Positions 5,364 to 7,151 of a DNA stretch of 41,127 bases are shown piece after piece. The stretch spans positions 1 through 41,127 of IMG/VR virus record IMGVR_UViG_3300037205_000008; one strand, written 5' to 3'. Under the pieces are notes generated by a model. That model was not told where the DNA came from. It was given only the letters and a program-made list of their open reading frames with translations, and did no database searches. The translations under genes and the position numbers were made by a program. Origin of the DNA: a virus. Position 1 is the first letter of the stretch. Every line of letters begins with the position of its first letter.

Positions 5364-5591
5364 ATGACCAATTGCCCGCTATGCGACCGCGCACGCCGAG
5401 AAGTCGTCGGCGAGTATCAATCGACGCGTCGTTGCTGCCGGCTGAGGTATCTGCTACTTCCGTGGCACAGCAAAGACTACCGGCGAGCGACGCTCGAACG
5501 CTGGTCGGTACAGCACGGACCGGACGAGGCGGAGGCAACGCGCGCCGACGTGGTGGCGGCGTGGAATGAGCGCGTACTACAACGAGCATGA
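5364..5591 (+). CDS. Small Cys-containing protein (75 aa)
   Basis: The N-terminus has CPLC followed by a CC pair about 17 residues later, a possible zinc knuckle. The rest is Arg/Trp-rich and ends with a helix ([14 protein letters not shown]) of the kind seen in small phage proteins with an AWN.R motif. The ATG at 5364 directly follows the preceding stop. The end overlaps the methyltransferase start by 26 bases. Family not named with confidence. Confidence 0.6.
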   Translation: MTNCPLCDRARREVVGEYQSTRRCCRLRYLLLPWHSKDYRRATLERWSVQHGPDEAEATRADVVAAWNERVLQRA

Positions 5592-6780
5592 GCCGTTTGC
5601 GGCGCAGTGGCTGCGGAACCTGATTGCGGCGGGGCACATTGCCGCTGGGGATGTGGATGAGCGAAGCATTGTTGATGTTCGACCCGACGACTTGCGCGGA
5701 TACACCCAATGCCACTTCTTCGCCGGCATCGGCGGATGGAGCCTCGCCCTGCGACTTGCAGGCTGGCCCGATGACCGACCTGTTTGGACAGGCTCTTGCC
5801 CCTGCCAGCCATTCAGCCAGGCCGGCGCCCAGCGTGGCGGCGCAGATGAGCGACACCTATGGCCTGCGTTGTTCCGGCTCATCGGCGAGTGCCGCCCTGG
5901 CGTCATCTTTGGCGAGCAAGTTGCCGGAGCTTCTGGCCTCGCGTGGCTCGACCATGTTTGCGCTGACCTGGAAGGCGCAGGTTACGCCGCAGCGGCGGCG
6001 AATCTGTGCGCTGCTGGCGCGGGCGCACCGCACATCAGACAACGACTGTATTGGGTGGCCGACACCGGTGGCCAACGACAGCAAGGGCTCGGATTACAGC
6101 TACAACCAGGGCAACCACGACTCGATCACGTTGAAGCTCGGCGGCGCGGCGAAGGCGTGTTGGGGCACACCGCTAGCCCAACACGCGAACGGCACGCCGG
6201 AGGCGTTCTTGGAGCGCAAGCGGCGCTCGTTGCGCAACGGCAGTCAATCGATGGGCGTGTGCCTATCGGATCTGAATATGCAGGCGCAAGCGTACTTGGG
6301 GACGCGGCCGACACTGATGGCCGGAACGCCAGCGCAGAAGGGCTACAACGAAGCGGGCAACACGGACAGCAGCCGCAAGACGGTGGCGCTGCTCGCCGCA
6401 TGGCCGACGCCGAAAACATCCGACGCGGACAAAGGTGTGCGGACGATGCGCGGGGCGCTCAACGAGTTGAACCGGAAGGGTCCGGGCAGCGATCTGCCGA
6501 CGATCGCGGCTGCCGCATGGGCGACGCCAACTGCGCGGGACTGGCGCTCGACGCAGAGCAACCAGCACGGCAAGAACGCGCGCCCCTTGAGCGAGAAGGC
6601 TGGGCTGATCTCGAATGGCTCCCCTGCCGAGATGGAAAAGCCCGGCCAACTGAACCCGGCCTTTTCCCGCTGGCTCATGGGATTCCCAATCGCTTGGGAC
6701 GACTGCGCGCCTACGGCAACGCGATCGTCCCGCAAGTCGCCGCGGCTTTTATCGAAGCCGTGATGCAATGCAACGAATGA
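5566..6780 (+). CDS. dcm: DNA (cytosine-5)-methyltransferase (404 aa)
   Basis: The enzyme transfers a methyl group from SAM to C5 of cytosine. Motif I ([10 protein letters not shown]) lies at about 51-60, motif IV with catalytic Cys80 in [12 protein letters not shown], a motif VI-like FGEQVAG near 115-121, motif [13 protein letters not shown] near 158-166, and motif [14 protein letters not shown] near the C-terminus. Between VIII and X the target-recognition region (about 170-350) is unusual: low-complexity, Gly/Gln/Arg/Asp-rich, with recurring ADT, ADA or GDA units. That region is read in a second frame by gene 5651..6763. No cognate restriction enzyme is adjacent, so an orphan, self-protecting methylase is likely. 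Confidence 0.9.
5651..6763 (+). CDS. Overlapping +1-frame protein with WPTP repeats (about 370 aa)
   Basis: This frame stays open for over 1.1 kb entirely within the methyltransferase gene and encodes a protein I recognise by pattern from other phages: a Ser/Ala/Pro N-terminus ([14 protein letters not shown]), then GSSASAAL, a [15 protein letters not shown] block, repeated W(P/G/A)TP...D units ([33 protein letters not shown]) and an ending [15 protein letters not shown]. Such proteins are often annotated as methylase-associated or hypothetical. Start choice is uncertain: ATG 5651 follows GGGG; ATG 5675 is an alternative. Function unknown. Both frames look constrained, so this appears to be a true overlapping gene. 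Confidence 0.65.
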
Positions 6781-7151
6781 CGGCCGCCGAGGCGCGCTCT
6801 GTGCCCGCACGCAAGCCAGTGAAGCGGTCTAGCCGCCTGGACCTCGAGACGGTGATGGCGTTGCAGATCGGGATGGACCTTTCGATACCCGCTCCGGAGC
6901 GCGAGCAAATGCTGATTGTCGGTCGAAAGTTCCGCACCGACTTTAGCTGGCCGGCGCACAAGCTGATCCTCGAGGTTGAGGGGGGCATCTGGGGCAAGAG
7001 CCGACATACCTCCGGTGTCGGGTTTACTCGGGACACGGAGAAGTACAACGCTTTGGCCTGCATGGGGTATAGGGTGCTTCGAGTAACCACGGACCAAGTT
7101 CATAACGGGCAAGCTTTGAAATGGCTGCAACAGGCTCTAGGGACGCCTTGA
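6768..7151 (+). CDS. PD-(D/E)XK-type endonuclease, Vsr/DUF559-like (127 aa)
   Basis: The core FRTDFSWPAHKLILEVEGG fits the beta-hairpin of Vsr and DUF559-type nucleases, with candidate metal ligands Asp in TDF and Glu in EVEGG. It is followed by a basic GKSRH stretch, a helix with DTEKYNALACMGYRVLRV and a strand. Size matches this compact family. It directly follows the cytosine methyltransferase, with an overlap, as Vsr follows Dcm in enteric bacteria. It may act in mismatch repair at methylated sites or as a resolvase or nickase; these cannot be separated here. An internal ATG at 6777 is an alternative start. Confidence 0.7.
   Translation: MQRMTAAEARSVPARKPVKRSSRLDLETVMALQIGMDLSIPAPEREQMLIVGRKFRTDFSWPAHKLILEVEGGIWGKSRHTSGVGFTRDTEKYNALACMGYRVLRVTTDQVHNGQALKWLQQALGTP

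Follow-up and report, generated by a model that had tools for sequence, protein, structure and literature searches.

The window analysed here is the whole of virus record IMGVR_UViG_3300037205_000008, 41,127 bases with a P22-like portal, in which a C5-cytosine methylase gene (frame 0; Table 1) contains a second frame, one base off its register (+1), that stays open for 379 codons between stops (5624-6763), much as the original prediction had described. Frame 0 carries the core motifs required for PF00145 (I, IV with its PCQ, and VIII), and its motif VI reads EQV where the canonical form is ENV, with the glutamate retained. The AF2 model has a confident core and a confident C-terminal helix with nothing folded between them: residues 173-345 lie almost all below a pLDDT of 50 and are without secondary structure, so that a folded target-recognition domain is absent from the frame-0 model. 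A Foldseek search with this model returned M.HhaI and M.HaeIII (best E 9e-7, about half of the query aligned). Motif IX is not evident in frame 0, and the matches to PF00145 and to PDB sequences stop at motif VIII. A stretch resembling motifs II-III (NExxPxAAxxL...GDVD) seems to lie ahead of motif I, a permuted order suggested by an hhalign E-value of only 0.009; the usual order of motifs II-III is seen in Firmicute, Bacteroides and actinophage relatives. The next gene (6768-7151) shares the last bases of the methylase, and its product is nuclease-like, with a match to DUF559 (PF04480, E=1.3e-4). Searches of plasmids returned only the methylase itself among the matches listed.

Table 1. Features of the methylase locus, in positions of the window.
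Feature	Positions	Strand	Basis
Frame 0, C5-cytosine methylase catalytic subunit, 404 aa	5566..6780	+	PF00145 E=6e-16; PHROG 363 E=3.6e-85; fold of the AF2 core like that of M.HhaI and M.HaeIII
Frame 0, motif II-III-like stretch, 5′ of motif I	5575..5670	+	hhalign to canonical motif II-III, E=0.009; weak
Frame 0, motif I (FAGIGG)	5719..5736	+	sequence, profile
Frame 0, motif IV with catalytic Cys (PCQPFS)	5800..5817	+	PCQ invariant in alignment; aligned with M.HhaI
Frame 0, motif VI variant (GEQV)	5911..5922	+	alignment to M.HhaI
Frame 0, motif VIII ([12 protein letters not shown])	6025..6060	+	alignment to M.HhaI
Frame 0, region between motifs VIII and X	6085..6603	+	disorder predicted; frame 0 near neutral, +1 under constraint
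Frame 0, motif X (GNAIVPQ)	6715..6735	+	GN invariant in alignment; confident C-terminal helix (AF2)
Frame +1, embedded protein, proposed recognition and motif IX subunit, 362 aa from ATG 5675	5675..6763	+	PHROG 1008 E=4e-35; PHROG 31772 E=7e-23; open and conserved in relatives
Frame +1, probable start codon	5675..5677	+	made by wobble of a conserved Asp-Val/Ile codon pair in frame 0
Frame +1, WPTP (frame 0 VADT)	6056..6067	+	sequence
Frame +1, WGTP (frame 0 LGHT)	6161..6172	+	sequence
Frame +1, WPTP (frame 0 MADA)	6401..6412	+	sequence
Frame +1, WATP (frame 0 MGDA)	6518..6529	+	sequence
Frame +1, motif IX-like block ([20 protein letters not shown]) after the module array	6644..6703	+	hhalign to canonical C5-methylase motif IX, E=2.8e-4; one comparison, 20 columns

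The C-terminal half of the +1 protein is an array of W-x-TP units, four at this locus as predicted, and the final motif named in the same prediction ([16 protein letters not shown]) is present from about 6650 onward. The array is followed by a block resembling motif IX of canonical C5-methylases, a match that is short and modest. Both PHROG families matched by the +1 protein are labelled DNA methyltransferase, and searches of Pfam, NCBIfam, PADLOC and PDB sequences with it returned nothing. Modelled alone by AF2 it gives no confident fold (pLDDT 50), which may be expected, since a subunit would need its partner. Of the four frame-0 words assigned to the repeats beforehand, VADT and MADA were right, and GHTA and GDAN had been read one residue late, strict register giving LGHT and MGDA. 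Across 178 genes W-x-TP occurs 521 times in the +1 frame, 3 times in frame 0 and 8 times in +2, compared to about 12 times in shuffled +1 proteins. The frame-0 residues beneath it follow a loose pattern (L/V/M, mostly A/G, D/N/H/Y, A/T/S/P) because the third bases of the +1 codons are free.

Taken by itself, the openness of +1 at the source locus is only mildly unusual, with one stop against 4.0 expected (p=0.018 by codon permutation over a slightly larger stretch). It could be argued from this p-value of roughly 0.02, and from the fact that frame 0 forces some +1 residues under the catalytic motifs, that the open frame is a by-product of methylase composition and conservation and that a second protein is not made. 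Across homologues, however, the effect is overwhelming. Stops in +1, whose frequency had been suggested as a check, are rare: 28 were observed against 382 expected in 35,776 codons from 123 clusters, the expectation coming from permutation of the synonymous codons of frame 0. The clusters were set by 9-mers in common and are not wholly independent of each other. Fully open +1 genes number 105 among these clusters, compared to 6.6 expected. No deficit is found in the +2 frame (1406 stops, 1352 expected) or in 13 ordinary bacterial C5-methylases (129 stops, 138 expected), while 43 testable loci found by frame 0 alone contain 4 stops in +1 against 124 expected. The +1 frame also extends beyond the end of frame 0 in some relatives, and divergence by codon position, described below, is reversed in all 143 informative pairs. 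The stop deficit, the control methylases and the overlapping-gene dN/dS together refute the by-product explanation, to which we give practically no weight.

Constraint in +1, the second check that had been suggested, is seen as strong purifying selection both in codon-position divergence and in overlapping-gene dN/dS, the latter calculated over 59 independent pairs with each locus used once. In the upstream codons that belong to frame 0 only, dN/dS is 0.17 for frame 0 and 0.95 for +1, which serves as the neutral control. Over the catalytic part the values are 0.23 [0.20-0.26] for frame 0 and 0.68 [0.62-0.76] for +1; in the recognition region between motifs VIII and X the order is inverted, with 0.23 [0.19-0.29] for +1 and 0.81 [0.66-0.98] for frame 0; and in the C-terminal part they are 0.45 for +1 and 0.33 for frame 0. 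Both frames are under purifying selection in the catalytic and C-terminal parts, all confidence intervals being below 1. Upstream of the overlap, divergence at the three frame-0 codon positions has the normal pattern (0.11/0.10/0.56). Within the catalytic overlap the wobble position is damped (0.15/0.11/0.31), and the recognition region shows the pattern reversed (0.32/0.17/0.14), the most variable base there being the third of the +1 codon. Constraint is thus partitioned by region, the catalytic motifs being held in frame 0 and the stretch between VIII and X almost wholly in +1. Over the catalytic motifs, some of the +1 conservation mirrors that of frame 0; such a shadow as its sole cause is ruled out by the stop deficit, the control methylases and dN/dS. 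The repeats had been proposed to serve both frames, and they do occupy the same DNA, but selection in the recognition region acts nearly all in +1. An equal service to both frames is excluded by dN/dS and by frame-0 residues that simply track the free +1 third bases.

The +1 frame probably initiates at an ATG within frame 0. At the aspartate that forms this start, GAT is used in 70 of 88 clusters compared to 36% at other Asp codons (p=4e-16, with cluster relatedness partly remaining). A GGAG/AGGA-type site lies just upstream of the ATG in 38 of the 88 clusters, and the frame-0 AGG and AGC/AGT codons that form the GGAG site are enriched just 5′ of it. Paenibacillus phage Shelly, for instance, has GGGAGG ahead of its annotated internal gene. 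The Shine-Dalgarno match ahead of ATG 5675 in IMGVR_UViG_3300037205_000008 is weak, and a start further upstream or downstream is possible. At the other end, the +1 frame of marine relatives (our loci L029, L030, L031, L039, L040 and L041) goes on for another 88-139 codons once the methylase has ended and carries additional WPTP units, in a stretch where the other two frames contain 4-9 stops.

Programmed ribosomal frameshifting could instead fuse the two frames into one polypeptide, with the catalytic motifs followed by the +1 recognition array. Single-frame forms in actinophages would fit such a product, as would one locus (L144, 2371-3482) where a frame change joins the N-terminal part of frame 0 to the C-terminal part of +1 in a single ORF, motif X lying in another frame. 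However, L144 comes from a metagenome-assembled contig, and its frame change may be a sequencing or assembly error. The start-codon signature points to independent initiation of +1, the frame is conserved for about 100 codons 5′ of the modules, and a simple fusion would lose motif X, which is retained in frame 0. We consider frameshifting improbable.

Relatives of the +1 protein were found in 136 public phage records and relatives of the frame-0 protein in 334, with at least 577 matches in viral contigs and 206 in bacterial genome contigs; they include Paenibacillus, Lacticaseibacillus, Bacteroides and actinobacterial phages. The +1 overlap is present in 223 of 225 loci, most of them found via +1, the two exceptions being L144 with its frame change and a fragment at a contig end (L044). 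Because most of these loci came through +1, the search was repeated with the frame-0 profile, and the pair was present in all 79 new loci. The overlap has already been recorded as two CDS in E. coli phage K1ind2 (ORF29/ORF28, Mte8-like), Paenibacillus phage Shelly (gp55/gp56, g55 internal gene) and PhiXhv-28, and has thus already been seen by annotators. Among our loci the embedded gene is entered as a CDS at L060 (2528-3325), L230 (2451-3155) and L062 (2513-3418), the labels being Mte8-like protein, g55 internal gene and second DNA methyltransferase. In the openly licensed literature we found no description of the overlap, its selection, the mosaic of frames described below or the function of the annotated pairs.

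The W-x-TP modules are shuffled between genes: they occur at differing ranks, in differing orders and in differing backgrounds, with up to 94% identity where the catalytic parts share only 52-62%. The actinophages provide examples in which the same pieces are dealt between the two frames. In gp70 of Mycobacterium phage ShiLan, two LPTP units lie in +1 and the next three in the methylase frame, which also holds motifs IX and X; a +1 profile matches this methylase frame at 5e-11. In Gordonia phages SchottB and Neville the units are in +1 and motif IX in frame 0, and Microbacterium phage R1 has a minimal form resembling the IMGVR_UViG_3300037205_000008 locus. Three actinophage loci in our set (L227, 2309-3478; L226, 2309-3379; L229, 2300-3163) each have the LPTP modules and motif IX distributed differently between the frames.

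This dealing of the same pieces between frames suggests that the +1 protein likely works with the catalytic subunit. It is also conceivable that the +1 gene is real and merely shares the methylase DNA, its product having an independent function, for example in anti-restriction or some other DNA-associated role. That +1 matches no Pfam family or solved structure leaves room for this idea, as does the fact that the link drawn here between the two proteins comes from sequences and models. Against it stand the motif IX block in +1, the occurrence of these modules and of motif IX within the methylase frame of actinophages, and the lack of a folded recognition domain in the AF2 model of frame 0. In addition, no free-standing +1 relative away from a methylase was found in the loci examined. 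An independent function is therefore unlikely, if less so than frameshifting. The recognition domain of the methylase had originally been described as overwritten by a conserved second gene. The second gene is indeed conserved, but it is probably not an unrelated one: its product looks like the recognition and motif IX half of the methylase itself.

We favour, with a probability of about 80%, the explanation that the locus specifies a C5-cytosine methylase that is split, probably a heterodimer, with both subunits read from one stretch of 1.1 kb in different frames. Frame 0 would give the catalytic subunit, in which a disordered linker of about 170 residues separates the catalytic motifs from motif X, and the +1 frame a second protein whose C-terminal half is the W-x-TP array followed by motif IX. 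This second protein would most likely fold onto the catalytic subunit and supply the DNA-recognition half and motif IX in trans. We infer that +1 is translated, that its product forms a complex with the frame-0 protein and recognises the target, and that the split methylase has an anti-restriction role, the role usually proposed for phage orphan methylases. The varied orders and backgrounds of the modules suggest that phages probably alter or broaden the set of methylated sites in this way as an anti-restriction measure. More tentatively, and at slightly less than even odds, +1 may consist of interchangeable recognition modules that program one catalytic subunit for several sites, the recognition half having moved between frames over evolution, so that it lies wholly in the overlapping frame in proteobacterial, Firmicute and Bacteroides phages, and in actinophages partly or largely in that of the methylase.

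Split C5-methylases are known, and it is the phage-wide, module-shuffling and frame-partitioned form that appears to be new. M.EcoHK31I and M.EaeI are two-polypeptide C5-methylases that act at YGGCCR, and the small subunit of M.EcoHK31I is encoded within the large one in another frame. As an experimental precedent for the arrangement, the larger polypeptide of M.EcoHK31I contains motifs I-VIII and X and the smaller motif IX, with the predicted recognition domain placed on the larger (PMC3404938). The phage pair, likened to it by described layout and not by sequence, similarly has motifs I-VIII and X in frame 0 and motif IX on a second polypeptide, but its recognition region is selected in the embedded frame, as a variable W-x-TP array, and not on the larger subunit. 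The M.AquI genes are adjacent with only a minimal overlap. In this naturally split enzyme the catalytic motifs are on one chain, motif IX and the distal variable region belong to the second, and motif X is on the small subunit (PMC3404938). It shares with the phage pair the separation of catalytic motifs from the distal variable region and motif IX, and differs in motif X, which in the phages is in the frame-0 catalytic subunit.

A related picture is found in the C5-methylases of Bacillus phages SPR and phi3T, multispecific orphans with several exchangeable recognition modules within the methylase frame. These are phage-borne orphan enzymes with exchangeable modules, as proposed for the phage pair, where the modules are instead in the overlapping frame. 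ShiLan gp65 is another phage DNA methylase with a gene concealed out of frame inside it: its ShiLan domain contains an out-of-frame HNH endonuclease, and the in-frame reading is predicted with poor confidence (PMC11855218). That gene, however, is an insertion element encoding a homing nuclease in a different methylase, whereas the overlap described here covers the core of the enzyme itself. Relaxed specificity, as expected of a multi-module enzyme, is also known for m5C methylases from prophages of Paracoccus aminophilus (PMC3925955), a likeness of specificity alone.

Among cellular and tailed-phage genomes it is rare for a same-strand overlap to exceed 1 kb and to persist in phages and prophages from several bacterial phyla, with selection split cleanly between the frames. 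The +1 protein is often unannotated or labelled hypothetical, and its likely role as a specificity subunit has thus been missed; clones of the methylase gene would bring the +1 gene along unnoticed. The variable region of many C5-methylases in databases may be a linker and not a recognition domain. With this family, nature supplies a system in which to study the division of one enzyme between overlapping frames, and the swapping of methylation specificity by which phages escape restriction.
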